From Entoloma clypeatum (lineage: Eukaryota; Basidiomycota; Agaricomycetes; Agaricales; Entolomataceae): a stretch of 64,000 nt of DNA. Below the pieces are notes generated by a model that was not told the origin of the DNA, searched no databases, and saw only the letters and a list, made by a program, of their open reading frames with translations. The first letter of the stretch is position 1; each line of letters begins with the position of its first letter. Positions 6,270 to 49,694 of the stretch are shown here, in pieces. Made by a program: the position numbers and the translations under genes. Where the stretch lies: assembly GCA_963565915.1 (NCBI GenBank), contig OY751488.1, positions 1,302,001-1,366,000 on the forward strand, given 5' to 3'.

Positions 6270-6618
6270 CGGATAGCAGAGGGACCTGGGAAACGCTGGC
6301 AACAGCGAGTACCTGCCCACTCTACCCTGGTTGGCAAGGAACCGATCGAAAGATCTAGGTTCTGAGTCTTACTCCTTCACATATGAACCTGGGAACGTCA
6401 TTACGACAAGTACCTGTCATGATTCGTCCCTAAGGGGATTGACATAGTACACTCCATGTGGAAACGTTGATCGCACCTTATACGTTTCTGACATATAAAG
6501 GGTTTTCCTATGACCGCTATTCCTCAAGGGAATATGTCACAAGGAATCATTCAATTGCTTTCTCGAATCATATTCATAACACATCACTGATTGAGAACCC
6601 TTTTTAGATTCATTCACA

Positions 6619-9600: not shown

Positions 9601-11346
9601 GTACCCACTCCGGAACCCGAGCAAGTACCAGATCGACCGATCAGGGAACGACGAGTTCGGAAGATGCCAGGAAGCATCTATGGGGAAGACACTCCAGCAT
9701 CTGATCTTGAAAAATTAGATCGAAGACGGAGATTGGGCGGTCAAACGGCATGGATGAATGACCTCCTGATGGAGGCGATATCAGCCCAAGTTGGCATCGT
9801 TGAAATGTCCCATAAAGACATATACCCTCTTCCAAATAAAGAAGACTGGTATGCAGCTGAACGTAAAGAGCTAGACATGCTCAAACGCCGCGGGGTGATC
9901 ACGGAGCTAGTACCCCTGCCTGCAGGGAGGAAAGCCCTAAGGAACAAATGGGTTTATAACGAAAAATCCGACGGGCGTCTGAAAGCGCGCCTTGTCGCAA
10001 AAGGCTTCTCGCAGGTGGAAGGGATCGACTTTGATCAGATCTTCTCACCAGTCGTAAGATATGAAACCGTCCGACTGATACTGGCATTGACAGCCCTTGA
10101 AGGGTGGTTCATGACACTGTTGGACGTCTCATCAGCCTTCCTCTACGGAACGCTCCAAGAAGTCATTTACATGCGACAGCCTGAGGGCTACATAGTAAAA
10201 GGGAAAGAGCACCTCGTGTACCAACTATTCAAAGCTCTATATGGACTTAAGCAGGCCGCATTAGCCTGGTGGAGGGAACTTGATTCCTCCATGAAAAAGC
10301 TCGGCTTTGTCCGGCTTCACTCCGATGCGGGAGTGTTCATTCACAAAAGTACCAATGGGGAAATTGTAATCGCCGTCATCTATGTCGACGACTCTGCTTT
10401 TCTCGGCACAAACCGGGAATATACGCTAGAAAAGAAGAAGGCCTTCATGACAACATGGGAATGCAGGGACCTAGGTCACCTAGCGCCCGATGGGGAACCA
10501 AAGGAATTTCTCTCAATCCAAATAAGGCAACGTGGGAAGAAGATCTTCATTGATCAAGTACCTTACCTTGAGAAAATTCTGGCACGCATGGGGATGAGCG
10601 AATCTAATGCCACCCATACGCCACTCCCTACGGGCTACAAACCCATGGCGTCCGAAGATGAACCCAATGCGGAACTCCGATCCAAGTACCAATCCGTCAT
10701 CGGATCACTCCTATATCTGATGATTGGAACGAGGCCTGACATCTGCTTTGCTGTAATCAAAATGTCCCAATTTTCCGCAAATCCCACCAAACGCCATTTA
10801 GAGGTGGCTAGGGATATTTGCAGATATTTGAAGGCAACGAAAAATTACGCGATCATGTACGATGGGGACTCAGGGAAAGGGATCTATGCATTCACAGACT
10901 CCGACTGGGCGTCAGATGAAAACACGAGGAGGTCTACCACCGGCTTCTTCATATCACTGGCATCTGGAGCGATAACATGGGTATCATCGGCGCAAAAAAC
11001 CATCGCCCTCTCTTCTACAGAAGCAGAGTATATGGCGCTATCAGATTGCAGTCGCGCAGCAACATGGCTGAGAAGCATGCTTGCCGAACTTGGAATGCAG
11101 ATCGGGTCAGTACCGATCTACGGAGATAACAACGGCTCCGTCTTTATCGCATCCAACCCTGTAACTGAGAAGCGATCCAAGCACATTGACGTGCGATTCC
11201 ACTTCGTCAGAGAAAAAGTCTCCGAAGGAATTATTACGGTCGAATTCATCGAAGGAGTGAATAACCCTGCGGACCTTTTGACTAAGAATCTGGGGAAAAT
11301 CCTCTTTTCCAAGTTTATCCCGTACTTCGGACTGATAAAGAACTAG
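6619..11346 (+). CDS. Copia gag-pol polyprotein, intact (1575 aa)
   Basis: This single frame encodes the whole capsid and enzyme set of a Ty1/copia element. The gag region (about residues 1-300) has a basic KKKGKGRWRNQKK patch and no standard CCHC knuckle. Protease follows with WILDSGA (Asp506). The integrase has an HKRLGH...CTGC zinc module and a catalytic core with Asp706 (HSD), Asp768 (VDGGGEF) and Glu802 (GRAER). RT carries YVDD at 1255-1258. RNase H begins at TDSDW near 1427 and continues to the KRSKHIDVR block and C-terminal NPADLLTKNL. The start is chosen for its ATG in CACAATGTC, about 360 bp after the LTR and shared with copia A. There is no stop or frameshift, so it is probably functional. 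No frameshift or stop separates gag from pol, so stoichiometry must be set by another route. Confidence 0.97.
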   Translation: MSTSRSAMDTITAFDGIDYQSWAEKMKSYLLHQGVWRIVSGDITRPVIADFTTTVSTPGPTAAAPPVLTTTVDQPGFRKEEKAWIRDDDVALGAIRLKVSEAIRRHIKDSTSALDAWSELKDNYSKVSPAVIFGDFKAAATYKLSGRDPVPEIERLGSLFARLADSKFVVPDLMQAMILANAIPDAWSSLSTALFQVYDADDFTYKAVADSIISEYRRKYSVGSTRTSNEQARKISGTKRKGQDPKWERQQKPSTSQNDADEQPNSADPSTASEKKKGKGRWRNQKKSANTADNASEHVEETVEFVAPAIHFPPLPPPSFTTVTGRGKTTSTAQPDSQRMQSLLQRMNPPPSQYTGLPSGKPSVWKKNDHVRKLARGIGARPSGSNLRILDTIIPEEDERPSKQRRVTPPLDQTLRMMDIDHQSERMGPDQFEDGLIELDGSSSSSPESDQLRKANNTSLQTCKILASTSAECMDHIDNDLYKKYTKHFASCTHCKEKEHAQWILDSGASLHFTHEFKDFAYYRPLKAKRFVQTAEKGKKLEILGVGAVPVRHTLNGEVKTHLLRPVFYIPDMDTRLLSLGVFLNHGYKVDGMRGEINISKGQNKIQFSPHILGQTIYWLDTEIRLDQIHAISSEITVETWHKRLGHPNDQALNKIPTSTKGVPKTLVREKSQESCTGCLKGKMPNQSYPNSMTRAVKPFDLIHSDLKQISTASYHKYKYFLTFLDDFSSHVWVVLLRKKSGAITALKQFLAMIQNQFAATPKKWRVDGGGEFDEYKDVLADHGILIDVTLPYQHQQNGRAERINRTLWEKSQALRFDACLPPMWWEFCLEHAAFLYNRTPMQRLEWKTPYFRVTNEIPDMSSVRVFGCQAYVYIPKEKRRNSLESRSRLMIYLGSKPGVKGYRFMDPETNTIFMGGKAIFDESKYPRCHIDPLPENHPEMENPEPADEFEDLIPGSNDDDSHNETPQDSVPIEQDQPESDNELPASEPDDEPRVPTPEPEQVPDRPIRERRVRKMPGSIYGEDTPASDLEKLDRRRRLGGQTAWMNDLLMEAISAQVGIVEMSHKDIYPLPNKEDWYAAERKELDMLKRRGVITELVPLPAGRKALRNKWVYNEKSDGRLKARLVAKGFSQVEGIDFDQIFSPVVRYETVRLILALTALEGWFMTLLDVSSAFLYGTLQEVIYMRQPEGYIVKGKEHLVYQLFKALYGLKQAALAWWRELDSSMKKLGFVRLHSDAGVFIHKSTNGEIVIAVIYVDDSAFLGTNREYTLEKKKAFMTTWECRDLGHLAPDGEPKEFLSIQIRQRGKKIFIDQVPYLEKILARMGMSESNATHTPLPTGYKPMASEDEPNAELRSKYQSVIGSLLYLMIGTRPDICFAVIKMSQFSANPTKRHLEVARDICRYLKATKNYAIMYDGDSGKGIYAFTDSDWASDENTRRSTTGFFISLASGAITWVSSAQKTIALSSTEAEYMALSDCSRAATWLRSMLAELGMQIGSVPIYGDNNGSVFIASNPVTEKRSKHIDVRFHFVREKVSEGIITVEFIEGVNNPADLLTKNLGKILFSKFIPYFGLIKN

Positions 11347-11407
11347 GCGAAACAAAAGTACCTATATATATGTGGGAAAAAGTAAGATGTATTTAGAAGT
11401 ATGTACT

Positions 11408-11420
11408 AAATATGGGGGGG
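11408..11420 (+). promoter_or_regulatory. Copia B polypurine tract
   Basis: AAATATGGGGGGG abuts the 3' LTR and is the expected plus-strand primer site. The same tract precedes the copia A 3' LTR at 12828-12840. Confidence 0.8.
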
Positions 11421-11730
11421 TGTTGAAACTTTTCCCATCACGTAGATTAGATTAGATTAGATTACATCACGTGACCTTTACATATCTTCATTACATACTT
11501 GTTTGGTTGGTACAAACAGTAGTACGGTATATAAGACCAGGAAACTGTCAATATCAACAAGTTGTCTCTTGACTCTTAACCGCCTCCATCGCTCTTACCA
11601 GCCTCAACCGCTCTCACCAGCCTCACCCTCCCCAACCTATGTAAGTGGTCAGAACGGTATCGTAGAGTACTTCCACTGTAGCCGGTTGCTTCAGTACACT
11701 TGCGGCTAGCGCCCAGGTGGAACTTCAACA
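11421..11730 (+). repeat. 3' LTR of copia B
   Basis: 310 bp, identical by eye to 5948-6257. It is followed by the second copy of the TSD GGCTT, where copia A resumes. Confidence 0.96.
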
Positions 11731-12764
11731 GGCTTCACTCTGATGCGGGAGTGTTCATTCACAAAAGTACCAAAGGGGAAATTGTAATCGCCGTCATATA
11801 TGTCGACGACTCTGCTTTTCTCGGCACAAACCGAGAATACACGCTAGAGAAGAAAAAGGCCTTCATGACCACATGGGAATGTAGGGACCTAGGGCACCTT
11901 GTGCCTGATGGGGAACTGAAAGAATTTCTCTCTATCCAAATAAGGCAACGTGGGAAACGTATCTTCATTGATCAAGTACCTTACCTTGAGAAAATACTCG
12001 AACGAATGGGGATGAGCGAATCTAACGCCACCCATACCCCACTTCCTACGGGCTACAAACCCATGATGTCCGAAGATGAACCCAATGCAGAACTTCGATC
12101 AAAGTACCAATCCGTCATCGGATCGCTTCTATATCTGATGATTGGAACGAGGCCAGACATCTGTTTTGCCGTGATTAAAATGTCGCAGTTTTCCGCAAAT
12201 CCCACCAAACGCCATTTAGAAGTGGCTAGGGATATTTGCAGGTATCTAAAGGCGACAAAAAATTATGCAATCATGTATGATGGCGACTCAGGGAAAGGAA
12301 TCTATGCATTCACAGACTCCGATTGGGCGTCAGATGAAAACACGAGGAGGTCTACCACTGGCTTCTTCATATCACTGGCGTCTGGAGCAGTAACATGGGT
12401 ATCATCGGCACAAAAGACCATCGCCCTCTCTTCCACAGAAGCAGAGTATATGGCGTTATCAGATTGCAGTCGCGCAGCAACATGGCTGAGAAGCATGCTT
12501 GCCGAACTTGGAATGCAGATCGGATCAGTACCGATCTACGGAGACAACAACGGTTCCGTCTTTATCGCATCCAACCCTGTAACCGAGAAACGATCCAAGC
12601 ACATTGACGTGCGATTCCACTTCGTCAGAGAAAAAGTCTCCGAAGGAATAATTACGGTCGAATTCATTGAAGGAGTGAACAACCCTGCAGATCTTTTAAC
12701 TAAGAATCTGGGAAAAATCCTCTTTTCCAAGTTTATCCCGTACTTCGGATTGATAAAAAACTAG
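11731..12764 (+). pseudogene. Copia A gag-pol, 3' part (RT C-terminus and RNase H)
   Basis: Copia A continues here after the B insertion, starting from the TSD GGCTT. The frame encodes the RT palm with YVDD, the thumb, and an RNase H with TDSDW, the ALSSTEAEY block, KRSKHIDVR and NPADLLTKNL, ending at TAG 12762-12764. This part is fully open and differs from copia B by a few percent in scattered silent and missense changes. It lacks its own start because it was severed from residues upstream of 5947. Confidence 0.93.
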
Positions 12765-13295: not shown

Positions 13296-14008
13296 TGTTA
13301 AGTAGGTGAAAAGTCGGAGCTTCGTCGGAGTCTGTCAGAGGTCGGACGTAGGACTGAGACCGGAGTGGAACTCCGGAAATGCGGAGGAACGACGAAGGGG
13401 AGGGACGTGGCTTCAATGTATGTGTTGCGCCGCTGTTTGTTGGATAAGGTGTCCCAATTTCAGGAGGTCGGAGGAGAGGTTGGAGGTGCAGAAGTCCTCG
13501 GAAAGATCTCGGTGAAAGACACATTGACGTGGAAATGGTCAGACGACGTCGGAGTTGTAACTCGGACACAGTACTGAGCTCGTTGAAGGGTAACGATGGA
13601 GGAAGAGCAGTAGATGAGGATGTCGTCGGCATATTGTACCACAGCGAGGATCTCTGGCATGAACGGGGAGTAGAGGAGTGAACTTTGTTGATATTCGAAC
13701 TGAGGAACTACAGGTATGGTACGAGCTTAAATACCTAAATGATATTACTTTACAGAGATGGTTGGAGTAGGTCCGGAGTTGTGGCGTAAGTTGCCAGCGA
13801 CTGTAATGAACATCGGAGATGTCGGTCAACGGACCATGCGGAAAAGGCGATGCATAAGTAAACGGGAATATGAATATGAAATGCATAAAGGCATGGAGTT
13901 ATGAATATGAAATGCACGATGGCAACGTGCGGAGATGCGGAGGTAACGGATGTCCGGAATGTCGGAGGAATATCGGAGTGGATCGGAGATTCGGAGACGG
14001 ATATAACA
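13296..14008 (-). repeat. 3' LTR of gypsy X
   Basis: 713 bp, defined by its partner at 26161-26873, the polypurine tract and the TSD. Because a plus-strand gene starts 27 bp beyond its edge at 14035, this LTR must also supply or contain an antisense promoter if that gene is expressed. Confidence 0.95.
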
Positions 14009-14023
14009 GTATTCCCCTCTTAG
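14009..14023 (-). promoter_or_regulatory. Polypurine tract of gypsy X
   Basis: On the minus strand the bases just before the 3' LTR read AAGAGGGGAATAC, a typical plus-strand primer tract. This fixes the element's orientation independently of pol. Confidence 0.75.
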
Positions 14024-14034
14024 GTCTGACACCC

Positions 14035-14998
14035 ATGGAAGACCGTGAGAAAATAAACAAGGTCATGTGGTCTCGGTTATTTAACGGAGATGAGCGGCCC
14101 AAGGGTTTTCTTCCAGTTACCAACAACATGCCCCAAGACTCAAACACACAACCTGCGCGCTCCAGCGCCAACCTCGACGACTCCGAAGAGGAGCTCCTGC
14201 GCCGTCTGGCACAGGTACGCAAGGAGAAGGAGGAGGCGGAGGCAAGGAAGAAGGCGGAGGCCGAGAGGAGGGCGAGGGAGGCAGAGGCGAAGAAGAGGGC
14301 AGAGGCGGAGGCAAAGGCGGAGGCAGAGGCGCAGAAGAAGAGGGCGAAGAAGGCGGGGAAACAGAGGGTGGAGAGCGGAGCGGAGGAGTCGGAGGTCCGG
14401 GGGGAGGCATGTCAGGCCTGTGCGCAGGCAAAGGTGGAATGCAAGTGGGCATTGTGAGTACCCGCTTTTTCATCTTCTTTTTCTTACTGACAGTCTCCTT
14501 AGGCAGGGGAAGGGCACCACATGCCAGCGGTGTAAAGACGGCAAACGGGTTTGCCTGAAACCCGGCGAGACGAGGGCGAAGCGGAAATGGGGGAAGACAG
14601 AGGAGGCCGTCGCGGAGGTCACGGGCCCGAGCGGGGTGAAGGGCTGCTGCGGCGCAGGGGTCGCGGAGGAGCTCCGGGAGCTCCAGGAGGAGAAGGAGGA
14701 GAAGGAGGAGCGGTCGGCGAGGGTCGGTTGGGCGCTGCTCCGGCAGCTGCAAATTATGAACAACCACCTTGCCTACTGGAACTTCCTGCTGGAGGCGGCG
14801 GCTCCGGAGTCGGAGACGGAGGACGGAGAAGAGGAAGAAGGAGAAGAAGAGGATGAGGAAAAGGACAAGGGGGAGGTCGAGGGGTTGGCGGACGGGGAGC
14901 TTGCAGAACTGCAAGCGGAGAAAGAGGAGGCAGAGGGAGAAACAGAGGAAGAGTCGGAGGATGACGGTCCGCTGGCCAAAAAGGCCAAAACCCAGTAG
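14035..14998 (+). CDS. Antisense Zn(II)2Cys6-type protein gene carried by gypsy X (two exons)
   Basis: The gene lies opposite to gag-pol, between the chromodomain and the 3' LTR. Exons 14035-14453 and 14503-14998 join through a 49-nt GT-AG intron to give 304 residues. The N-terminus is charged and coiled-coil-like (about 45-115, Lys/Glu/Ala-rich). Splicing creates CX2CX6CX10CX2CX6C (Cys126, 129, 136, 147, 150, 157), the spacing of fungal binuclear zinc-cluster DNA-binding domains. After it come a leucine-rich helix with LLRQLQIMNNHLAYWNFLLE near the middle and a very acidic C-terminus ending PLAKKAKTQ, a possible nuclear signal. ATG 14035 is the first after the LTR; ATG 14128 is an alternative. 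A second open copy lies at 48743-49694. A nuclear regulator is inferred; a domesticated cargo gene is possible. The arginine-poor cluster is atypical. Confidence 0.75.
14454..14502 (+). other. Intron of the antisense zinc-cluster gene
   Basis: 49 nt, GTGAGT...CTTAG, with a pyrimidine-rich 3' half and CTGAC as candidate branch point. Reading through it gives an immediate TGA. Removing it places the six cysteines in one frame. The same intron, same length, is present in the copy at 49150-49198. Confidence 0.8.
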
Positions 14999-15066
14999 CC
15001 CCTCCCCCCTCTAATTGTTTTTATTTTATTTTATTTTATTTTGCAATATGAGTGTCTTGCGCGGTT

Positions 15067-16071
15067 CTATAGGCGTGATAAGGGGCCCGGCTTCTCCGGA
15101 TATGCGGAGTGGAAATCCGCGACTAAGTCCGTCGCGTGTTCGAGTTCCGTGGCGGGTAGCCAGGACTGTTCCTCATCGGTTCCTTCATAGCCTAGCCAAT
15201 GGACTAGGTAGAGCAGTTTGCAAGAACACCGACGATCCAGTTTGGTGTCAAGGATTTCGGCGATTTCGTATTCCACTTCTCCTTCAACGTCGATCGGAGG
15301 AGGCGGAGTTACTGTCCGGTTTGGAATGTCATTCGGAACAGATGGCTCCAGCATGGAGATGTGGAAAACGGGGTGAACACCGCGTATGGTGTCCTGAAGT
15401 CGGAGGGTGTAAGAGTGTGTACCATTCCTGGCAAGGATGTCAAAGGGGCCAAGGTACTTTTCAGACAGCTTTTTGGAGGGTCGTGTAGTGCGGAAAAACT
15501 TGGCCTTCACAAAAGCTTGCTGTCCTACTTCGAGCGGAGGGGGCGGAGCACGCCGGAGATCGGCAGGGCCTTGATAACGTCATTGAGCTTCTAGGATTGT
15601 AGATTTGAGTTCTTGGTGAAGCTCGTCCAGGTCTACGACAAATTGTCGGGCATGGGCGGATGTGAGGTCGCGCTCCGGATGGACGGAGAGGTTCGGATGA
15701 TAACCTTTATTGGCGAAGAAGGGCGAGATCCCGGTCGTAGCACTCGGAGCATTGTTGTACGCGAACTCTGCAAGCGGAAGTAGCTCGGACCAGTTGTCCT
15801 GCTGATAGTTGCAGAAGATGCGGAGGTACTGTTCCAAGGTTTGGTTGGTACGTTCGGTTTGACTGTCGCCTTCAGGATGGTAGCCAGAGGTGAAGTGCAG
15901 AGTCATGTTGAGGGCTTTTCCGAGGGAGCGGAAAAAGTGGGAGACGAACTCCTGGCCTCGGTCCGAGGTGACATGTTCCGGTACTCCGTGCTTGGAGAAC
16001 ACATGCAGGATGAACAAGGTGGCTAGATCTTCGGAGGTGCAGTGGATCGTAGTTGGAACAAAAATGCTTTG
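15067..16071 (-). pseudogene. Gypsy X pol, 3' part: integrase core, C-terminal domain and chromodomain
   Basis: This is the end of X pol after the LINE insertion. From 16071 down it encodes the integrase core with TSDRGQEF and the second half of the DDE fold (SGYHPEGDSQTER, NQTLEQYLR), then the HPVFHISMLEP block and a C-terminal chromodomain (YEIAEILDTK, LYLVHWLGYEG, SWLPATELEHA), ending at 15067. A stop at 15580-15582 (TGA in CAATGACGT) breaks it. The truncated copy reads CAACAATGT here, so both probably derive from CAACGACGT by CpG changes. Chromodomains of this class target integration to histone-marked chromatin. The stop lies only 69 bp from the end of the antisense gene, so the two transcripts converge. 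Confidence 0.9.
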
Positions 16072-16170
16072 TTTTTTTTTTTTTTTTTTTTTTTTGGTCA
16101 ACAATTTGTATAGCGGTATACTAGGGGTACAGTCCGCTTGACATAGAGTGAACTACATCGGTCCGAGGAC
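16072..16170 (-). repeat. LINE 3' trailer and poly(A)
   Basis: On the minus strand it reads GCGGACTGTACCCCTAGTATA, then CCGCTATACAAATTGTTGACC and poly(A). The terminal CCRSTATAYAAATTG word recurs at other LINE/SINE ends in the window. Confidence 0.85.
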
Positions 16171-19100
16171 CTACGTATGCAAGAAGAACAAGCGGCACAA
16201 AGCTCCGTCAAGCTGGTGAGTCCTCGTGCCAGGACGGGGGAGTCTGTTATAAACAAACACGTTAGTATGCGCACCCGAATATTCGGCCGCGCGATACAAG
16301 AGCACTCCAACCTTGTGAGGTTGGCCGTTAGCGGCGCTGGTGGGTGTCTGCGCCCTGCCCACCAAAGATGTGCCTGTGCGGTTCTTATCTTTCGATCGCG
16401 TTCGCTTGCCAGAGGGGGCTGCACCCCTTTGAACCCAGCGCGCTACCACGCGATTACCGCCAATGGTTGTGTTGGGCATTGGACGATCCCTGAAGGCAAA
16501 CGCCCCTGGGTTGTCCATGATGAATTTCCTGAAGTTGTCCCAGGTGGGAGTGTTCCTCGAGAAGATAGGCATGTCTGGGGGCCTAGGGTGGTGCAGACAT
16601 TTGTATAGTACGTGGGCGAAGTCCTCGACGGACCCTGTTCCACAGTCGCATTGTTCGGTCTTGTCGCCAATATTGAACCTATGTCTATAGTGACCAATTG
16701 GGGCGTGGCTGGTGAGGCCGTGAACCATTTGAGCCGTGAGGGATTGGGAGTGACCCACGTCCTTAAGCCATGTACCGCCCTTGAGGTGGGACGGTTTCAT
16801 TCTTTTGGCCCGAGCGTGGTCTTGGCGTCTAACGCACGACCTCGGGAATTGGTAGTGATGGCCAACATACTTGGGGGACTGGTACAGGTTGTTCCAGTCG
16901 CCTAGCATGTCATCTGTGAATTGTTTCGTGTTGAAGTCGAGGGATCTGGAGGCCGATTCACCACACTCGATGTGAATCGAGGAGGCAAAGTCGTGCACTG
17001 CACAGTGGGGTTCGAAGCCATGGTCCGAGCAATCCGGGACATGGTGAAAGAAGACCTTGGATTTCAGGCCTGGTTCCTCAAACCAAGGAACCAGGTTACT
17101 GATGATAGCGAGCGCAGTTGCCTGCGAGGAGTGGAGGTCCGGGTCTGTGGCCCGCCGAATGGCGTTAACAGAGTCGGTGAAGATGTGGATTTCTTCCAGT
17201 TGAGATAGTCCCCCTAGCAGAGTGACCAGGTTGGAAAACCCGTGTCCTATTGCTAGAGTTTCAGTGTCGTCAGAGACTGCGAGGCCACCAGCCGCCCAGT
17301 CTTTATTGATGGAGTACCCCATGTGCCAGGTTTCCCAAGCTGCAACAGCTTGATGGCCCGACATGAGGGAGGGAACAGCCGCGTCAGTGACAATGACAGC
17401 GGATTTGTTAGAGCAGATGTTGGCATCGAACACCTTGTTAAGGGTGATGAGGCGCAGCTTCCTGGCTTCGGCTCGCTCCTTAGCGGTTTTGCCGCGGATA
17501 AGGGTGATATCGTGGATGATACGGTCAGGGAAGCGGTCTAGGACGTGTTTCCCTGGCTCATTGTAGTTGTTGAAGGGTGATAGGGGGACAGTCACGTTTG
17601 CACGGTATGCCCAGATATCAACGAGGGGGGATTTAAGGTTGTACATAAATTCCGGGGAGTACCATGGTCGCTTTGAGGGGTCTTCCTCATCGCAGACCAT
17701 GACAGTCATGTGTCGTGGTGCAAGGGAGTGCATAGGGACACGGTTTCTGCAGGAGAGCTTCTTTAGGTGCAAATGCACCGGGGGCAGGCTGGCAAGAGAT
17801 TCGACCACCCCTGTGGGGGTGGTACAGAAGGCGCCCAGGATCCATAGGGCTGCACGCCTCTGGACTCTGGAGATAGACTTGATGATGCCCTTATTACAGG
17901 CACCGTCGAAGTTCCATAGATTGGCACCATATAGAGCGATCAGTAGAATACACGATCGGTATAGGGTGCGCTTGTGTTTGGGCGTAAGTCCTCGGACTGA
18001 GTTTCCCAGTGAGAGTAAGGCTCCCGTTGCAGAGAAAGCCTTAGTGGCGTATCGTTTGGCGTGCTCAGTGAAGAGTAGCTTTCGATCAAAGAAGAACCCC
18101 AAGTACCTCCAGAAGGTCTTGGGGACAAGAGGGGTGTCGCCTGTGAAGGGCGCATATCCTAGGTCAACCAGGGGGTCGTCGTCGCCATTCTTCCTGGAAA
18201 AATGGAACACCTCCGATTTAGAATGTTTGAGGACAAGCCCAAGGGCTGTAGTCAGTTCGAACAGACATTTGTATGCCTTTTTTAGTTTGGCGAGGTTTTC
18301 CTTCCACGTCTCGGACTGGACTATGATGGTCCTGTCATCTACGTAGGAGATGAGGCTAGCCTGCGACTGTTTGGCGTGAAACACGTACATTAGCGGGGCG
18401 AGGTATATGGACGATAGCACGGGGGAGAGGGCAGAGCCCTGACCTACGCCTATGTCCACAGAGAAAAGGTCTGAGAGGTCGTCCTCCCAGGTGTATTGAG
18501 TCTGCCTCCCTACTAGGTAGTTGGAGAAGAAGTCCACGACAGTGTCGGGGAACCCCATCCTATCCAGTATGAGCGCGATAACCGAGTGGTTTAGAGAGGG
18601 AAAGTATTGTGCCAAATCAATGGCTACGACACTAGTCTTGAGTTTCCTTGACCACCCCGCATGAATGAGGTGGGTGAGGAATTGTCTGGCATCTTCGGTG
18701 GAGTTCTGGCGAACCCCTCCGAATTGTCCTGGGTGTAGTAGACCATAGCGGGCGAGTTCCCATTGCAGTCTGTTAGCGATAGCTTTCTCAAATAGTTTGC
18801 CCAGGGTGTTTAGGAGCACGATGGGGTGAAATGCTTTGGAAACGTCATACGCCGGCTTATTCGGTTTAGGAATAATGACGGTCGTTGAGATTTTGAATGC
18901 GTCGGGCCAGAACCCTGCCGAGAGGCAAGCGTTCAGGATCCAGACGAACAACTTCAAGATATGCTCATGTGTGATCAAACACTTGAGATGGGACCATGTA
19001 AGATGGTCGGGGCCAGGGGCCGACCGGCTGGAGCAGCCGGCCAGGGCCTGGAGGACCTCTTGCGATGTGAATGGGACCCAAGCCCTTTTGGGCTGAGGTT

Positions 19101-20393
19101 CGAGAGCACTGCGCAGCCTATCAGGGTCGACAGGGCGCGCTTCGGCAGACTGAAAAGACTTATGAAATGCCTCACAGGTCTCAGCAGTCGTGGAGCAGGT
19201 CTCGCCATCGAAAATAATGGCCTCGGGGGAGGCATTCTTTCGTGGGCTGACCCAGGAGGTAAGGTCCCAAGGATGCTTGTTTTTGTTGGAGACTTCGTCG
19301 ATTTTCTTGTCAAAGAAGTTTCGTTTGGCGGTGCGGATGATTTTATGCATGGCGCGCCAGTCTTGGTCTGTCTTGCCCGAGTTGGAATAGGTGCGCCACC
19401 CGGCTTTACAGTCCTTATCCCACCAGCCCTTCGACCGGAACGAGTCCCGGGGAGAGCGAGAGAATTCGGTCCACTCAGCCAGGATGAGCTCCTGTACCTT
19501 CTGGGTAATACTAGTGATGTCCTCCCTAGTGGTTGTAACCGGGATAGGGATGGAGGCAATGGATTCCGTGAGTGCCGACAGGAAGTGAGTTTCCTCCTCC
19601 GAGTCTGGTACTATACGGTAGCGTTCCTTCGCGTTAATGAGGGGGGATCTGAGGAGGGTGATAATCGAACGGTGGTCCGACTCATCTGGGCTCCCAAGTT
19701 TGATGACCGAGTCTTTGTCCGTGTTAGGGAGGAAGACCAGGTCAATGATGGACGGGGTATTGTTGTTCTTAGGAAATGGGTAAACCCAGTCCTATGATGA
19801 ACAAGACCATGCGCGAATGTGAAGTCTGAAAGGAGAGATGCATTGTGGTTGTGGCGCATCACTTCGGGGTCCCATAGCGGCGAGGGGCAATTAAAATCGC
19901 TGCCTAGATACCGAATGGGAGGAAGGGATGTTCCAAGGGTGGCAAGGATGCGAATGGCCGTGCCCTGCGAATCCGAGTAAGCATTAATTAGGTTGATCTG
20001 GCCCTCGGGGACAGACAGCAAAATTAGGTTGACATCTCGATGACGGATGATGTCTGAGCGAAGTTTAGGTTTCATGGCGGTACGCCGTCTATGCACGTAA
20101 ACAATGGCGCGGGGTCGAAGATCCTCATCTATATTGGATGGGTCGAGGACAGGTTCTGAGTGGTGGAGGCACATCCAGTCTGGGTGGTTCGGCGGACCCA
20201 CAAGGGGCTCGCCGTCTTTACTCGTCATGGAGGCAACATGTCTAATGGTAGCCCATGGGGGCTCTTGCATGAAAATGATGTCGAGGTTATCTTTATGTTG
20301 CTCTAACATCGTTGACAGGAGAACGCTCTTTCGGTACATGTTCTGGGAGCGGATATGCAAACCCTCATGTTTATTCATAGTTGTACTTAACAT
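16171..20393 (-). pseudogene. LINE ORF2: APE endonuclease, reverse transcriptase, RNase H
   Basis: ORF2 would nick target DNA and prime reverse transcription there. It begins at ATG 20393, overlapping the end of ORF1. The APE domain shows MQEPPWA, SDFNCPSPLWD and SDHRSI. The RT has a GQGSALSPVL block and YVDD. RNase H follows (VTDAA, IHIFTDSVNAI), then a C-terminal CDCG...HVLYKC zinc-type motif. One base is missing near 19768-19775 (an A run before the NNNTPSIID block), which shifts the endonuclease tail. Beyond it the frame is open without interruption to 16171. The last 100 or so residues after the Cys/His motif look non-domain and may be a read-through extension. With a single frameshift the copy is recently inactivated. 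Confidence 0.93.
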
Positions 20394-22568
20394 ACTTCTA
20401 CGTCTGGTTGAATGCGGCGATTGTCTCGGTCAGCTGGGCGAGGACTAGGATTAGACTCAAAGAAGTGGGTGAAGTCCGCACTTACATTTGCTTCTTGATA
20501 ACGGCGCCAGATCCAATCAGGGTTGAACCGGCTTTTCCAGTACTTGCATACGCGATTGTCTGTGCAGTGGCTACCTTTGCAGTTGATGCAGCGTCCTGCA
20601 TGTTCACAGTCCTTGCCATCGGGGGTGGGGAGGACTGGGGGGTTTGCCTTGGCGTTCCCGCGGCAGCAGGAGGCGAGGGCTCGATGGAATTCGACGGTGT
20701 GGGGTTCACCGCAGATAGGGCAGAGTTTGCTCTTGAGAGGGCAGATCCGAGCGTTAGACGGATGGCCAAATCGCCAGCAGCGGTTGCATTGAGGCACTCC
20801 AACGTGCTTCTCGGCGGGGTTCAGGACGAGTCGGTAGGGTCCATACATTAAGGCCTTTCCGGCTAGGTTCTTGAGAACAAGACCCCCTTTGGAGTCTTCG
20901 ATGTCGAACCAGATGGTCCCGGTGCTAGACGACGGGGAGTTTCTGGCGAGGCGGGGCTTCGAGTTCTCGTAGTAGGAGAACTCGCGGGCAAAGGGAGCAG
21001 ACGACATTATGTCGGCGACCTGGCTCTCCGAGAGGGGAACGAGGCGGCCGGATTTTGGGTCGCGTTGCGGGGTGAGCCCGTAGTACGGGAAGTCGCAGAT
21101 TTTGAGACTCGATTTAGAGGTGGGTACCTCAACTCGAAGGTCAGTGTTGGGGGCCGAATGAGCGCTAGCGGCAAGCTTGGACTCGAAAAGGGCTTTGAAG
21201 ACTTTGAGGTCGTCCTCGTCGGGGACTTCGTCGGTCGCCAGGGAGAGGCCCCCCCGGTTTGACTCAACAGAAGTGACACGGATTGTCCTCTTTGCGTTGC
21301 CCAGATGGCCATTGATCTGGGTGAAGATAGTCTCCACCGCCCAGGGAAAGGGGGGGGAGGTGTAAACGGAGACGGATTTGCGAGACCGTCCTGACGTGGT
21401 GAATCGCTTCTGCTTCTTTCGGCGGGCCTGGGAAGCGGAAGGAGAGGTGGGCCTAATAGCAGCCGTGGCTTGCTGTAGGGCAATGGTGGTAGTGGCAGGG
21501 AACATCTTGGCCATGGCGACCAAGGTTTCCTGCTGCGACTCCGCGGCAGATTTGCGTTTTCTCGACGCAGTGGACCAGGGTTGGGCTGCAGCTACAACGG
21601 CAGGTGGGGGAGCCCACGCTGAGCCTGCAAGACCAGAGGGTTGTCGCTTCGCCGGGGGTGTGGGGACAGGGCGGGATAGGAGCTTGGCCTTCTCGCGAGC
21701 GAGGCGGCCGGACGCTCCAGCTGACGCAGACATGTGGGGTGTGGGTTTAGCTGTCTTCGGGAAGGAAGGTCGCTTCTTCTGGGGCGGCGGAGGTTTGGGG
21801 TCCTTCGCTGCGACGATGTTTTCGGGAGCTGACGTGAACGCCGACACCCCAGGGATCTTGACGAGGCGATCAATTAAGATGCCCAGTCCAGTGAGACGAA
21901 CACCGGAGGGGTCATCCCCTTCGGCATATTCGGTGAGCGCTCCGACATCCGCAAGGGTGTGGATGAGGGAGGCTGTAGCGGTGCATAGCTGGTCTGCAGT
22001 GGATTGGTCAATTGACCGGCGTTGAGATGCGGTCCAGGTGACCAGATCTCGTACGGAGGCAACGGAAGCGAGGGCGGCGTTGAAGTCAGACGACAACGTG
22101 TCCGCGGAACCTTGCAACATGCAGGGGCCTGCAAGTTCGCTGTTGTAGCCTAGGGTTGCCGGCATGCTGGGGGTGTCGACGGTCATGGGAACGTCAATGC
22201 GAGCAGCAGGGGCAGGGGGGGGGAGGGCGTTCCGAGCTATCAGAGTCATCTGAGGTGGGGGATGCAGGGCGAGGGGTAACAGACCCAGCGGATCCCATAG
22301 AGATGTTGCTGCCCTGGGGTGAGGAGGGACGAGCGGAGGGCGCCTTTTTCTTGTATCGGCTGCCAGGGGGGCCAACAGGAGCAAGGGCGGATGTCGGTGC
22401 GGCAGCAGCCATGGCGGCTACCGTAGACGCAGTGGAGTAAGGACCTGTCGTTGCAGAGGCTCCCACAGGAACAGTGGGGGTTGCAGACCAGTCGGCTTTC
22501 TGAGATGTGGACGACCTCATTTGAGGAGGAGGTCTCGGGTTGTCAGAGGGGATCGGCTTTGGAGCCAT
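20387..22568 (-). pseudogene. LINE ORF1: nucleic-acid-binding gag-like protein with CCHC knuckles
   Basis: ORF1 starts best at ATG 22568 (MAPKPIPSD). A one-base indel in a C run around 22209-22220 moves the reading into the long frame that ends at 20387. The N-terminal half is Pro/Ala/Ser-rich and low in complexity. The middle holds a folded RNA-recognition-like region. The C-terminus carries cysteine/histidine arrays (CNRCWRFGH...C, CPICGEPH...H, CINCKGSHC) seen in ORF1 of fungal LINEs. The stop overlaps the ORF2 start in ATGTTAA, suggesting translation of ORF2 by termination-reinitiation. The paralogue at 44954-46240 has the same knuckles. Confidence 0.9.
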
Positions 22569-22710
22569 GTTGCAATGAGTCGAGTGTTTCGCCTAGAAGA
22601 GCGATAGCAGGAGGATCGGATGGTATGATGGAGCGGGGGAGCTCAACAACGAGAGAGATTGCAACCAGGATGTGGCTGTGCACATCGTGGTAACAAGTCA
22701 AGAAGCGGTG

Positions 22711-23231
22711 ACAAAAATGCTTTGTTTTGTCATTCGGTCAACAATAACAAGGATTGCATCAAAACCGCCAGAGGTCGGAAGTGTCTCGATGAAGTCCATG
22801 GATATGGAGTTCCATGGAAGGTTCGGAACTGGGAGTTGCTTCAGCATATCATAGGGCTTGTGGTGTTGAGGTTTAGAGTGCATGCAAGTGGTGCAGGATT
22901 TGCAGTACTTTTTGACAAAGTCTCGAACACCAGGCCAAGTATAATCTTGTTGAATGAGACTAACTGTCTTGTTCTGTCCGGGGTGTCCGGAGAGAATATG
23001 GTCGTGCTTGTTGCGGAGGGTGCGGAGCCAGAGGTTATCGGAGTTGGGGACGTAAATGCGACCACTATGACGGAGGAAACCGTCGGAGTCTACGGACCAG
23101 TGCAGTTTGGGCTCCTTGAGATGGTCGGCATAGATTGGGTCAGATGGGAGTGAACGGAGGATGTCGGAGTGCAACTGTTCAATGTCCATTATGACTGTGG
23201 CACGGAGAACAGGGGTGAACAACTCCATAGC
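22711..23231 (-). pseudogene. Gypsy X pol: integrase N-terminal zinc domain and start of core
   Basis: In frame with the upstream RNase H, this part encodes the H2C2 zinc module (LRNKHDHILSGHPGQNKT ... KYCKSCTTC) and the first catalytic Asp of the core (ISMDFIETLP), ending at the LINE target site. It is separated from RNase H by a TGA at 23232-23234. The core resumes at 16057 downward. In the uninterrupted copy at 49815-51155 this region is contiguous, which confirms the insertion point. Confidence 0.92.
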
Positions 23232-24536
23232 TCAGAGAGATGTGGACAGCTGTTCTTGGGAAAAGACTGGTCGGAAGTTGCTTGGATTTACCGACGCATA
23301 GTCGCTATTCCCCTCTTTGGGATAGATGTCCCATCGTCTAGTCAAAGAGTCCGGTTTGGTACCGAGACGTCCGGGGCGGAAGCGAATCAAGAGATTGAAC
23401 TGAGAGAGGAACTCGGACCACCGGGCTTGTCGGCGGGTGAGAACCTTTGTAGTGGCGAAGTACTCCAGGTTCTTGTGGTCCATGACAACGTCGATCGGAG
23501 CAGCAGAGCCTTCAAGGTAATGTCGCCATACCTTGAATGCTTCATGGATAGCGAGTAACTCCTTGTCATGCGTGTCGTAGTTGAGTTCCGGGGCGGTGAA
23601 GGTGCGGGAGTGGAACACTACTGGGTGTATCTCCTCGTCGGAGGTCCGGATGGACAAAATAGCACCAAGTGCGTAGTCGGAGGCATCCATCTCGATTATA
23701 ATAGATCGATCAGGAATCCAATGAGTGAGGACTGGTGCCTTGGTAAGAGCGAGCTTCAACTCGTTGAACGCACTCCGTGTGGAGTTGGAGAAATGGAACG
23801 GAGTACCCTTCCGGGTGAGTCAGGTGAGCGGAACAACAATGTCCGAATAACCGTGAATGAAACATCGATAGAAATTCGCGAATCCAAGGAAAGACTGTAC
23901 GTCCTTCACTTTTCGAGGTTCAGGCCACTCTTGAATGGTCTTCACCTTGGTTTCGGACATGCAGAGACCGGAGGGAGAAAGGATGAAACCAAGATATTCG
24001 ACTGTGTCAACAGAAAATTCGCACTTGTCGGAGCGGACGTAAAGTCCGTTCTTGCGGAGACGTCGGAGAACTTCCTTGACATCGTCGGGGTGCTTGGCGG
24101 GGTCGTCGGAGTAAATGAGAATGTCATTGAGGTAGACCACCACTGTAACATCGAGGAGGTCACTGAAGATATCATTCACAAATCGCTGAAAAGCGGCAGG
24201 GGCGTTGGATAGTCCGAAAGGCATAACAAGCCATTCAAATGATCCGTAACGAGTGTGGAAAGCGGTTTTCCATTCATCTCCATCGGCAATGTGGACAAGA
24301 TGATATGCATGCCGGAGATCGAGAGTGGTATAAACACGCGCTTTTCCGGCAGTGGAAAGGAGGTCGGAGATGAGCGGAAGAGGGTATTGATCCTTCTTGG
24401 TAACTTTGTTCAGGCCCCGATAGTCGACGCACAGGCGGAGGGAACCGTCCTTCTTTCGAACAAAGAGGACTGGAGCGCCGTGCGGAGAGCGAGAGGGGCG
24501 AATGAAACCAATGGCCAAATGTTTGTCTATGAAGCT
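23232..24536 (-). pseudogene. Gypsy X pol: reverse transcriptase and RNase H
   Basis: The RT reads [35 protein letters not shown], the LDLRHAYH block, [13 protein letters not shown] and a catalytic box YLND (normally YLDD), then LGFANFYR. RNase H follows with IEMDASDYALGAIL, YDTHDKELLAI and the DHKNLEYF block. Stops at 23820-23822 and 23232-23234 are in the same frame as gag and integrase. Each sits where gypsy relatives usually have Arg, so CGA to TGA is the simplest explanation. The changed catalytic box would also impair the enzyme. Confidence 0.92.
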
Positions 24537-26120
24537 TCACAGGGCAGATAGTTCGGATTGTGAAATGGAGTACATAGGGCCAATAGGGGGAGTCGATCTG
24601 TCTTCTAACTCGATGCGGAGGTCATACGGACGATGCGGAGCGAGGGTGTCTGCTTTTGTCTTGCTAAAAACATCGGCAAAATCGTGATATTCCTCTGGGA
24701 TATGGGAGAGGTCCGGAGGTTCCTCGGACATAGAAACGGATTGGGTGGAGATCGTGTGGTCGGAGAGGTGGATTCGGAAGGATTGGGCACCCGGAAGTTT
24801 GCAAGTGCGCACAAATGCGGCTGCATTTATCAATGCAATATTTGGGACAACATCCGGAGTAGCAGCGGGTGTGCCGGAGTCGGAGGTCGGAGTATCGGAA
24901 GAGGTCTGCGGAGGTAGCGGGGCTGACCTGGCAGAAGACGTCAAGGTCGGAGACTCCTTCAAGAGCTGTGGACGGAAAGTAATACTGCCCAATACCCAGT
25001 CAATCATAGGATTGTAGCGGGTGAGCCAGTTGTATCCAAGGACCATAGAACAGACGTGTCCAGCTTTGCCACAAAACATACAGAGGTTGTTGTCAAAACG
25101 GCGTTTGCGTTCCTCCGGAGTTAGCTTTCCATCTTTTCCGAGTTTGTCGGAGATGTCAGACTTGGGAGCGGAGGAAGGCTTCGACTGTTTGCCCTGGTTC
25201 TGTGTCTGCGGTTTGGCTTTGGAGTTTTTATCGGAGTTTGCGGAGGGGGTTTTAGCTTCGGATTTGTCGGATTTGGATGCGGACTTGTCAGAGCGGGACT
25301 TCTCGCGATGATGTTCCCAGTGGCGAGCATCAATAGTCTGTGCTAGCTCCCTAAGTGCTGGTAATGTGCTTGGCTTTGCTTGAGTCCCAAGGACATCTTT
25401 AATCCGCTCCGCCAACCTGGAGTAGTACTGGTGATGCAGGGCGGAGCTGTCCCAGTGCGTTTTGGCAGCAAGGCGTGTGAACTCGATATTATACTTGAGA
25501 ATATGTTGATTTTCGCGCATTTTGAGATTGTCTAGAGAGTCGGCAGCATCCGCAACGGGGTCAATGACCCCGAATTCCATGCGGAGTGTGCGGAGGAATG
25601 CGGACCAATCTTCATACCAGTCCGGGGGGTTGTCCGGGTCCGGTTCGATGATGAAATGCTCAAAATAATCGAGAGCTGTGCCTCGGAGGAAGGAGATGGC
25701 GAGAGTGATTTTGGCAGAGTCATCATCATACTCGGAGTTGTCGTGGAAGAACAATGTGCATTGGAGGATGAACTGATTCAGTTTCCGGGGATCGGAACCG
25801 TCGAAGGTGTCCGGATCCTTAGCCTTTTTGTGATGCTTGTGACCTTTGCTGTGTTTGAGTTCATTGGTCATTAAGAGGAAAGCATCCGCAAGGGCTTGTG
25901 GGCCGAAAATATTCTGAGGAGACGGGGGTGCGGATTCTATGGGGGAAGTGGGGATCGGAATATTATGTGGAGGTGTGATGGGCCGAAAACCCGGAGGTGT
26001 CGGAGTAGTCGGAGTTACAGGGGATAGTTCTGTTAAACGTTGTTCGACATTTTGTAGAACTTGTTGCCTAGAAGTGCCAGCTTCTGCAGCTTTTGCTGTC
26101 TTGGTGTTTCGGAGTGCCAT
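24537..26120 (-). pseudogene. Gypsy X gag with protease largely deleted
   Basis: The frame opens at ATG 26120, 40 bp inside the 5' LTR, and encodes a capsid region (LTNELKHSKGHKHHKK, FDGSDPRKLNQFILQ, the WYEDWSAFLRTLRMEFG block), a basic Ser/Lys-rich linker and the first part of a CCHC knuckle, CMFCGKAGHV. There the sequence jumps to SMVLGYNWLTRYNPMIDW, normally the end of the protease. The knuckle's last cysteine region and the whole active site of the protease are therefore missing by an in-frame deletion. The frame ends at TGA 24537-24539, just before the RT; the expected residue is Arg (CGA). Confidence 0.9.
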
Positions 26121-26160
26121 GACTAGCAGGAATCCAAAAACGGTTTGAGTTCGAATATAC

Positions 26161-26873
26161 TGTTAAGTAGGTGAAAAGTCGGAGCTTCGTCGGAGTCCAT
26201 CGGAGGTCGGACGTAGGACTGAGACCGGAGCGGAACTCCGGAAATGCGGAGGAACAACGAAGGGGAGGGACGTGGCTTCAACATATGTGTTGCGCCACCA
26301 TTTGTTGGATAAGGTGTCCCAATTTCAGGAGGTCGGAGGAGAGGTCAAAGGTGCGGAGGTCCTCGGAAAGATCTCGGTGAAAGACACGTTGACGTGGAAA
26401 TGGTCAGACGACGTCGGAGTTGTAACTCGGACACAGTACTGAGCTCGTCGAAGGGTAACAATGGAGGAAGAGCAGTAGATGAGGATGTCGTCGGCGTATT
26501 GTACCACAGCGAGGATCTCTGGCATGAACGGGGAGTAGAGGAGTGAACTTTGTTGATATTCGAACTGAGGAACTACAGGTATGGTACGAGCTTAAATACC
26601 TAAATGATATTACTTTACAGAGATGGTCGGAGTAGGTCCGGAGTTGTGGCGTAAGTTGCCAGCGACTGTAATGAACATCGGAGATGTCGGTCAACGGACC
26701 ATGCGGAAAAGGCGATGCATAAGTAAATGGGAATATGAATATGAAATGCATAAAGGCATGGAGTTATGAATATGAAATGCACGATGGCAACGTGCGGAGA
26801 TGCGGAGGTAATGGATGTCCGGAATGTCAGAGGAATATCGGAGTGGATCGGAGATTCGGAGACGGATATAACA
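26161..26873 (-). repeat. 5' LTR of gypsy X
   Basis: 713 bp, matching 13296-14008 with scattered, mainly C/T and G/A, differences. The base after it on the minus strand begins GTATATTCGAACTC, which is not a standard TGG-type primer-binding site. The primer is unclear. Confidence 0.94.
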
Positions 26874-28621: not shown

Positions 28622-29300
28622 TGTTAAGTAGGTGAAACGTCGGAGCTTCGTCGGAGTCCGTTGGAGGTCGGACGTAGGACTGAGACCGGAGTGGAACTCC
28701 AGAAATGCGGAGGAACAACGAAGAGGAGGGACATGGCTTCAACGTATGTGTTGCGCCGCCGTTTGTTGGATAAGGTGTCCCAATTTCAGGAGGTCAGAGG
28801 AGAGGTCGGAGGTGCAGAGGTCCTCGGAGAGATCTCGGTGAGAGACACATTGACGTGGAAGTGGTCGGACGACGTTGGAGTTGTGACTCGGACACAGTAC
28901 TGAGCTCGTTGAAGGGTAATGATGGAGGAAGAGCAGTAGATGAGGATGTCGTCGGCGTATTGTACCACGGCGAGGATCTCTGGCATGAACGGGGAGTAGG
29001 AGTGAACTTTGTTGATATTCAAACTGAGGAACTACAGGTATGGTACGAGCTTAAATACCTAAATGTGATTACTTTACGGAGATGGTCGGAGTAGGTCCGG
29101 AGTTGTGGCGTAAGTTGCCAGTGACTGTAATGAACATTGGAGATGTCGGTCAACGGACCATGCGGAAAAGGCGATGCATAAGTAAACGGGAATATGAATA
29201 TGAAATGCACGATGGAACATGCGGAGATGCGGAGGTAATGGATGTCCGGAATGTTGGAGGATGATCGGAGTGGATCGGAGATTCGGAGACGGATATAACA
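28622..29300 (-). repeat. Solo LTR of the gypsy X family
   Basis: 679 bp, homologous to the X LTRs from TGTTAAGTAGG to GGATATAACA (plus strand), flanked by the TSD AAGAA (28617-28621 and 29301-29305). It lacks one copy of a short internal duplication (the CATAAAGGCATGGAGTTATG region), which explains its shorter length. The intact TSD shows excision of an element by LTR-LTR recombination. Confidence 0.94.
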
Positions 29301-48742: not shown

Positions 48743-49694
48743 ATGGAAGACCGCGAGAAAATAAACAAGGTCATGTGGTCTCGGTTATTTAATGGAGATG
48801 AGCGGCCCAAGGGTTTTCTTCCAGTTACCACCAACATGCCCCAAGACTCAAACACACAACCCGCGCGCTCCAGCGCCAACCTCGACGACTCCGAAGAGGA
48901 GCTCCTGCGCCGTCTGGCACAGGTATGCAAGGAGAAGGAGGAGGCAGAGGCAAGGAAGAAGGCCGAGGCCAAGAGGAGGGTGAGGGAGGCAGAGGCGAAG
49001 AAGAGGGCAGAGGCGGAGGTGGAGGCGGAGAAGAAGAGGGTGAAGAAGGCGGGGAAACAGAGGGCGGAGAGCGGAGAGGAGGAGTCGGAGGTCCGGGGGG
49101 AGGCGTGTCAGGCCTGTGCGCAGGCGAAGGTGGAATGCAAGTGGGCGCTGTGAGTACCCGCTTTTTCATCTTCTTTTTCTTACTGACAGTCTCCTTAGGC
49201 AGGGGAAGGGCACCACATGCCAGCCGTGTAAAGACGGCAAACGGGTTTGCCTGAAGCCTGGCGAGACGTGGGCGAAGCGGAAACAGGGGAAGACGGAGGA
49301 GGCCGTTGCGGAGGTCGCGGGCCCAAGCGGGGTGAAGGGCTGCTGCGGCGCAGGGGTCGCGGAGGAGCTCCGGGAGCTCCAGGAGGAGAAGGAGGAGAAG
49401 GAGGAGCGGTTGGTGAGGGTCGGTTGGGCGCTGCTCCGGCAGCTACAAATTATGAACAACCACCTTGCCTACTGGAATTTCCTGCTGGAGGCGGCGGCTC
49501 CGGAGTCGGAGACGGAGGACAGAGAAGAGGAAGAAGGAGAGGAAGAGGATGAGGAAAAGGTCGAGGGGGAGGTCGAGGGGTTGGCGGACGGGGAGCTTGC
49601 AGAACTGCAAGCAGAGAAAAAGGAGGTGGAGGGAGAACCGGAGGAAGAGTCGGAGGATGACGGTCCGCCGGCCAAAAAGGCCAAAACCCAGTAG
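48743..49694 (+). CDS. Antisense Zn(II)2Cys6-type protein gene, second copy (two exons)
   Basis: Exons 48743-49149 and 49199-49694 around a 49-nt GTGAGT...CTTAG intron give 300 residues. The protein matches the copy at 14035-14998, with the same six-cysteine CX2CX6CX10CX2CX6C cluster, leucine-rich helix and acidic tail ending PPAKKAKTQ. It is four residues shorter owing to one in-frame deletion in the Glu/Ala/Lys-rich region. There is no stop, no frame change and no loss of splice signals, although the pol gene of the same element has lost whole domains. Its start again lies 27 bp from the LTR edge. Confidence 0.75.

Follow-up and report, generated by a model that had tools for sequence, protein, structure and literature searches.

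How can a retrotransposon that is copied through RNA keep a gene with an intron, and what would it use such a gene for? The question is raised by a stretch of 64,000 nucleotides (nt) of the Entoloma clypeatum genome (assembly GCA_963565915.1, contig OY751488.1, positions 1,302,001 to 1,366,000, forward strand), here called the window and numbered from its first letter. A chromodomain Ty3/gypsy element with long terminal repeats (LTRs), which we call X, carries between its pol gene and its 3' LTR a two-exon gene on the plus strand, antisense to pol on the minus strand. The sequences indicate that this gene is an ancient accessory gene, kept by selection, of one chromodomain Ty3/gypsy clade. Our overall reading, to which we give even chances, is that it may encode a DNA-binding regulator or anti-silencer targeted at its own element.

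Structure of the antisense gene

A preliminary description made from the letters of the window had reported the frames, splice sites and cysteine spacing of the gene and its head-on orientation to pol. These are confirmed, with the donor at 14454, the end of the acceptor at 14502 and the TAG stop at 14996-14998. The parts of the gene are as follows.

14035..14127, plus strand: possible N-terminal extension or leader, in frame with exon 1; coding status doubtful
14128..14453, plus strand: exon 1 from the probable core start, ATG at 14128
14410..14554, plus strand: six-cysteine cluster CX2CX6CX10CX2CX6C, split by the intron; each cysteine kept in 39-40 of 40 copies
14454..14502, plus strand: intron of 49 nt, phase 2, between Cys3 and Cys4, GTGAGT ... 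CCTTAG
14503..14998, plus strand: exon 2, with the second half of the putative zinc cluster, middle region, acidic tail, basic C-terminus KKAKTQ and TAG

We searched the 60.1 Mb of this genome (20 contigs) at the DNA level for copies of the gene and kept the best 40 of 152 candidates, which are 85-100% identical. The non-homologous ends of five copies were trimmed before the analyses of selection, start and intactness, the counts of splice sites and stops predate this trimming, and one copy without the 5' part (L048) was excluded from the intactness counts. Among the scored X copies the donor GT is kept in 39 of 40, and the acceptor CCTTAG and the stop TAG are kept in 40 of 40. The spliced frame is intact in 23 of 39 copies when read from 14035 and in 26 of 39 when read from 14128, and the exact cysteine spacing is found in 21 of these 23 and 24 of these 26, respectively.

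The gene had been described as starting at 14035. An ATG does exist there and is present in 38 of the 39 covering copies, but the core start is probably 14128, as four observations suggest. The ATG at 14128 is present in all 39 covering copies. Codons 1-22 counted from 14035 have shared variants in the ratio of 7 replacement to 3 silent, so that an excess of silent changes is absent. In a young subfamily (L022 and L024 among the 40, and L049, L050 and L051 beyond them) an additional T at 14098 disrupts the frame from 14035 and leaves that from 14128 unbroken. Finally, the proteins of two related families, Y and Z (see below), begin at the position that aligns with 14128. Under the 14035 start the subfamily with the extra T would carry a dead gene, which is ruled out by L022 and L024 being intact from 14128; L022 moved recently, because its LTRs are identical over 722 bases. 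A start in frame inside the LTR is also ruled out, the upstream part of the LTR having neither silent excess nor frame signal.

Selection on the reading frame

Is the frame maintained for its protein? Over the 40 copies there are 8 in-frame stops in the frame of the gene against 110-211 in the other five registers, counted before trimming. The minus registers have 110-174 stops, which rules out a minus-strand open reading frame (ORF) of 297 aa as coding on the pol strand. Singleton variants, counted after trimming, comprise 117 replacement, 46 silent and 4 stop changes, near the neutral expectation of 70/25/4%, while the variants common to several copies comprise 167, 146 and 1, respectively (Fisher p 6e-5 versus the singletons). 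The singletons would mostly be decay after insertion, and the shared variants would be older and have passed through active lineages. An excess at third positions is seen in the correct frame in both exons despite the frame shift by the 49-nt intron, from which we infer splicing over evolutionary time. The minus register that shares these third positions has an equal excess, yet it contains 174 stops.

The codon model gives an omega of 0.36 with a log-likelihood of -7737.7, versus -7888.8 at omega 1 (best of five kappa values), so that dN/dS across the copies, a check proposed in the preliminary description, is well below 1. Among the three pieces with usable fits, omega is 0.29 in the cluster and 0.28 in the middle region. 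The constraint is probably underestimated, live and dead lineages being mixed in this test. When the copies are compared with the one in the window, indel lengths divisible by 3 make up 25 of 30 cases for exon 1 and 18 of 22 for exon 2, against 12 of 40 for the downstream stretch, 3 of 6 for the LTR part and 3 of 5 for the intron; these events are non-independent and part of them are slippage of 6-bp units.

One could suppose that the antisense transcript matters only as RNA, i.e. as a source of double-stranded or small interfering RNA, its coding capacity being incidental. Passages of PMC7264820 do describe antisense transcription of LTR elements as able to feed silencing, but the amino acids, the frame and the cysteines are under purifying selection and exon indels prefer multiples of 3, which together makes this very improbable. 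The stop counts and the purifying selection rule out a chance ORF, and judging from the copies the gene is almost certainly a real accessory gene under selection.

The intron and the copying of the element

The preliminary description had argued that an intron could survive in such an element through its antisense position. The genome fits this explanation: the exon 1-intron junction pattern of X has 129 matches genome-wide and the exon-exon junction has none, with up to 2 mismatches allowed in each. Since only unspliced junctions were found, X appears to be copied only through the sense RNA, in which the intron cannot be spliced, and the antisense messenger RNA appears to have left no detectable complementary DNA copy. 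No intronless X copies were found by the junction pattern, and three suspects (L030, L066 and L078) retain the intron. The long survival of the intron fits a messenger of the accessory gene that is not the RNA being copied.

The intron has 49 nt in 35 of the 40 copies. Its length varies in young copies (51 nt in L022, 64 in L024, 63 in L050 and 56 in L052); where compared, the difference is due to a T-run, and the splice sites are kept.

The gene in three gypsy families

Absence of the gene from all other X elements had been named in the preliminary description as an outcome that would speak against it. Within this genome the gene is widespread. We took the best 150 of 2289 candidate chromodomain matches, of which 104 belong to X and 46 to families Y and Z. 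At least 95 of the 104 listed X chromodomain loci have exon 2 on the opposite strand at most 1.5 kb downstream, and none has it on the same strand; a listed X chromodomain stands alongside 95 of the 136 exon-2 matches. A Y or Z gene match lies at the same place and strand at at least 43 of the 46 listed Y/Z loci, as checked against 64 gene coordinates. The pairing counts are lower bounds, with only the best matches listed and the gene lists partly entered by hand.

Families Y (copies L055, L056, L058, L059 and L066 read) and Z (L057, L064 and L065) are 72-74% identical to X in the chromodomain region, and their proteins are 26-31% identical to the X protein. All three proteins open with a charged N-terminal region, contain a cluster of six cysteines and finish with an acidic tail and a basic end (KKAKTQ, KKQRK and KKQRTK in X, Y and Z, respectively). 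Each gene is interrupted between Cys3 and Cys4 by a phase-2 intron, and exon 1 has 419 nt in X (from 14035), 377 in Y and 419 in Z.

Captured cargo had been offered as one explanation of the gene, and as far as recent capture is concerned it is not borne out by a gene common to three diverged families. In favor of a recently captured host gene carried as a passenger, the host does have Zn_clus genes, and one of them, L076, contains a similar stretch, CQACAESKVKC. Against it, the gene, its place and strand and the position and phase of its intron are common to three families at such low protein identity, and selection persists; recent capture is hardly conceivable.

A pattern scan by which Y and Z were recognised revealed no such spliced cluster at the 3' ends of four other gypsy loci (L060-L063); other elements may cut into L060 and L061, and L062 and L063 look related. 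The pol frames of the latter two are 1225 and 1233 aa long. L062 also has a sense-strand ORF just downstream of its chromodomain (MSNITAASTDASD...), possibly a sense accessory gene.

A zinc cluster-like protein

Zn2Cys6 domains (PF00172, Zn_clus) usually have the spacing CX2CX6CX5-12CX2CX6-8C. The clusters of X, Y and Z, with Cys3-Cys4 gaps of 10, 11 and 8, all fall within it. The preliminary description had called the product a zinc-cluster protein; the six-cysteine spacing stands and a Zn2Cys6-like profile resemblance is suggested, while the Pfam gathering score of Zn2Cys6 (21 bits) is not reached by the cluster. The full proteins have no Pfam family above cut-off either, Y scoring 9.5 bits against Zn_clus and X and Z having no match to it.

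The profile of six cluster segments matches four PDB chains at E <=10. The best is LAC9 (E 0.097 over 40 positions), followed by Pho7 (4.7), the S. pombe regulator C27B12.11c (4.8) and LEU3 (8.2), each over 12-19 positions. The host genome has 18 Zn_clus matches. We fetched seven of these loci and excluded one without a full cluster (L074); hhalign against the other six domains gave a score of 29.6 and a probability of 58%. In 100 controls, with the cysteines kept and the other columns shuffled, the mean score was 12.5 and the maximum 26.7, and none reached 29.6. We take the cluster as Zn2Cys6-like, not as a proven member, and the product is likely a DNA-binding protein of the Zn2Cys6 type.

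The host match L076 (G000:C8:52050-52165), whose stretch given above is close to CQACAQAKVEC of X, is a possible descendant or source relative by its sequence.

CGGA saturation and the possible role of the protein

What could the protein bind? The word CGGA occurs 215 times on the strand of the gene in one element, versus 57 expected, and X, Y and Z are all saturated with it on this strand. In pol it exceeds shuffles of synonymous codons. The LTR strand bias is 23:3 in X and 20:0 and 21:0 in further LTRs, and the density per kb is 20-22 in the gene, 32 in the LTR and 20-27 in pol. The flanking bases differ, with TCGGA at all 21 sites of the Z LTR and a mix of GCGGA and TCGGA in the Y LTR. According to the relevant parts of PMC5559640, the typical target of well-studied Zn2Cys6 proteins is a pair of CGG triplets, CGG being the usual half-site, and Pho7 binds TCG(G/C)(A/T)xxTTxAA, with a single CGG in two of its sites.

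We propose that the gene would be transcribed toward pol from the LTR or leader (the leader being ~120-170 nt by eye) and its antisense transcript spliced once. The product would be a nuclear protein; by eye, its N-terminal part is charged and probably helical, a Zn2Cys6-type cluster comes next, and the tail is acidic and the C-terminus basic. Less certainly, it would bind the CGG-containing words that saturate one strand of its own element, and once bound it would act on the transcription or chromatin of that element. The most likely effect would be to keep copies active (anti-silencing, compare VANC of VANDAL elements) or to balance sense versus antisense transcription (compare HBZ of human T-cell leukemia virus type 1, HTLV-1). 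The acidic tail resembles an activation domain. Because of this tail, and because the gene is kept in young copies, an activator or anti-silencer is likelier than a repressor. That the protein acts on its own element through CGGA has a little less than an even chance.

The word is not confined to elements with the gene. Family W (L070, G000:C1:1318200-1319700; one copy), ~40% identical to X pol, has CGGA counts of 9 versus 2.3 in its LTR (taken by eye) and 24 versus 7.5 in pol, with 16 versus 8.7 on the other strand. Its pol match reaches position 290 and a C-run resembling a polypurine tract lies at ~226-240, so pol and 3' LTR are not separated by a gene; the motif thus does not depend on the gene, and a strict coupling of the two is ruled out. 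The CGGA clusters of W are ~5.7 kb apart, which suggests a shorter element.

CGGA could serve a host factor or be an older trait common to several gypsy families, with another job for the protein, e.g. in RNA export, as a partner of Gag or in integration targeting. W has the word and lacks the gene, the gene is not denser in CGGA than the LTR or pol, and constraint on the motif sites within X is not seen, all in line with this explanation. However, the three gene-carrying families are all rich in CGGA, whereas of the five gene-less gypsy loci sampled only W is clearly rich, and copia is not rich either; CGG is moreover the usual half-site of Zn2Cys6 proteins (PMC5559640, in part). We regard a host factor or older property as possible and rather unlikely. 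In age or distribution the word extends beyond the gene, and the link between gene and word, which comes from one clade of three families, is suggestive.

The strand bias raises the further possibility of an RNA-level role of sense UCCG or antisense CGGA, such as packaging, export or splicing enhancement. The one-strand bias is indeed strong in the three LTRs compared above. But the DNA-bound motifs of VANC are likewise arranged in same-orientation arrays, as parts of PMC5735166 describe, and a splice enhancer would concentrate the motifs in the gene, which is not observed. We consider a role at the RNA level improbable.

Several points weigh against a self-targeted DNA-binding regulator or anti-silencer. 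Five of the six C6 segments match Zn_clus, all below the cut-off (best E 0.015), and one cluster segment matches ADD_DNMT3 better (E 0.0041). Zn2Cys6 domains have a usual place for a lysine between Cys2 and Cys3. By eye, it is occupied in X and not in Y or Z. No relatives outside this genome were found in a large protein collection at E 0.001 or 0.01, part of the searching having scored only the ~8000 candidates richest in common words. Read from 14128, 13 of the 39 X frames are broken, which is what dead copies would show, and omega rises to 0.60 in the acidic tail of X and 0.61 in one Y pair. W is rich in CGGA in the one copy read, and the gene-less 3' end of L062 is mildly raised (8 versus 4.4, sd 1.9). 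In 28 X LTRs we found no purifying selection on CGGA at present, the word decaying as other CpGs do (p 0.69; non-CpG part p 0.55). Finally, X, Y and Z form one clade, and gene and motif may be a single event.

Taken at its widest, our reading of a self-targeted regulator would make this a case of retrotransposon self-recognition, in which an antisense Zn2Cys6-type protein reads an element-wide CGGA, including synonymous choices in pol, to counter silencing or set transcription, the families co-evolve, and W exploits the protein in trans. This version is tentative and, taken whole, doubtful. Co-evolving pairs of protein and motif would fit, because the families differ both in the bases flanking CGGA and in the cluster.

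The host element and other features in the window

The carrier had been described as Gypsy X. It is a chromodomain Ty3/gypsy element, refined here to one locus: a single 13.6-kb unit at 13296-26873 on the minus strand, split by a 6.6-kb insert and flanked on both sides by the 5-bp target duplication GTGAC.

13296..14008, minus strand: 3' LTR of X, 713 bp, CGGA 23 on plus and 3 on minus
14009..14021, minus strand: polypurine tract of X adjoining the 3' LTR, AAGAGGGGAATAC on the pol strand
15067..16078, minus strand: end of pol, C-terminal part of integrase and chromodomain, head-on to the antisense gene
16079..22710, borders approximate, no strand assigned: insert splitting pol, ~6.6 kb; alignment to L022 resumes at 22711
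22711..26160, minus strand: remaining internal region of X, 96-97% identical to L022
26161..26873, minus strand: 5' LTR of X, 96.8% identical to the 3' LTR over 715 aligned bases
48743..49694, plus strand: second copy of the gene, inside a broken X element, same arrangement

The polypurine tract is similar in Y and Z by eye, and ~450 bp present in L022 are missing from the window copy at 25053. Twenty loci were taken with 10 kb each; a second LTR is listed for 10 of them, and seven of these 10 (L010, L011, L014, L015, L019, L021 and L022) span ~7.2-7.4 kb. The insert at 16079-22710 holds a non-LTR retrotransposon inside X pol, with an ORF at 16171-19791 on the minus strand; the flank AAAATGCTTTGTTTT is present on either side of it, and there is a T-run at one end.

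Elsewhere in the window, a copia element at 6595-12764 has a long open gag-pol (1583 aa) and adjoins a second, truncated 3' copy (pol end and LTR). A solo X LTR, ~90% identical to the LTR of L022, lies at 28622-29300. A long ORF at 57201-58766 on the plus strand resembles, by eye, the N-terminal part of a Helitron helicase.

Comparison with known systems

The arrangement had been called unusual, and it is less so than claimed, antisense genes at this place being known in plant and fungal LTR elements. In fungi, the Boty-like retrotransposons of Botrytis cinerea have an additional antisense gene, brtn (Zhao et al. 2011, as cited in parts of PMC7264820 and PMC8365987). Like the X gene it is antisense in a fungal LTR retrotransposon, and passages of PMC7264820 place it in the class between pol and 3' LTR; the likeness is one of description. 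In plants, the relevant passages of PMC7264820 and PMC11963269 describe the antisense genes called aORF-3R (gene23 of Grande, and those of RIRE2, Retand TRP28 and PvRetro13), with antisense transcription in Grande from a promoter upstream of gene23. They resemble the X gene in lying antisense between pol and 3' LTR, in being kept in most copies and in having nuclear or DNA-binding-like products. Unlike the X gene they belong to other protein families, and the words 'intron' and 'zinc' are absent from the main texts of the two papers, whose passages on these genes do not mention an element-wide motif saturation as in X. A mussel LTR element is described in part of PMC10974842 as producing antisense RNA from its 3' LTR.

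Among retroviruses, HBZ of HTLV-1 is encoded antisense, occurs in a spliced form and acts as a regulator of its own provirus, and like the X gene, whose splicing is predicted, HBZ and APH-2/3/4 are antisense and spliced; sections of PMC10186651 describe HBZ/APH as driven from the 3' LTR and regulating their own element. They differ in being bZIP or other proteins of retroviruses, while for X the promoter and the regulation are predicted.

The fungal Zn2Cys6 regulators (LAC9, LEU3, Pho7; PF00172) are like X, Y and Z in their six-cysteine spacing, in an apparent profile resemblance beyond the cysteines and in CGG candidate targets. They differ in that X, Y and Z fall below the Pfam cut-off, misplace the lysine in two of three families and were found to have no other Pfam regulatory domains.

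VANDALs are DNA transposons. Their VANC21 recognises a short word in dense single-orientation arrays in its own element (PMC5735166, in part) and is linked to loss of silent marks (passages of PMC5735166 and PMC10398659). X shares the dense same-orientation arrays of a short word. According to the same passages, binding by the element-encoded protein is demonstrated for VANC, whereas that of the X protein is predicted from sequence, and the VANC word is mainly in noncoding DNA, whereas the X word also fills pol beyond synonymous shuffles. Unlike the VANC case, the X word is not specific to elements that encode the protein, W having the word without the gene.

We found no report of a Zn2Cys6-type antisense gene or of CGGA saturation in an LTR element among the titles and abstract openings searched, most subscription journals lying outside this scope. 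The class of antisense accessory genes is known; the zinc cluster, the intron that splits it and the CGGA saturation are the new parts. Even without binding, an intron-bearing accessory gene has survived since before three gypsy families diverged. If binding is true, a single protein-motif pair makes it possible to test how a retrotransposon evades or tunes host silencing, and the three natural variants X, Y and Z, together with W as a family that has the motif only, provide the comparisons. X is an apparent fungal counterpart of HBZ and VANC: an LTR element with a selected, intron-bearing antisense gene and a candidate DNA target over its own body.
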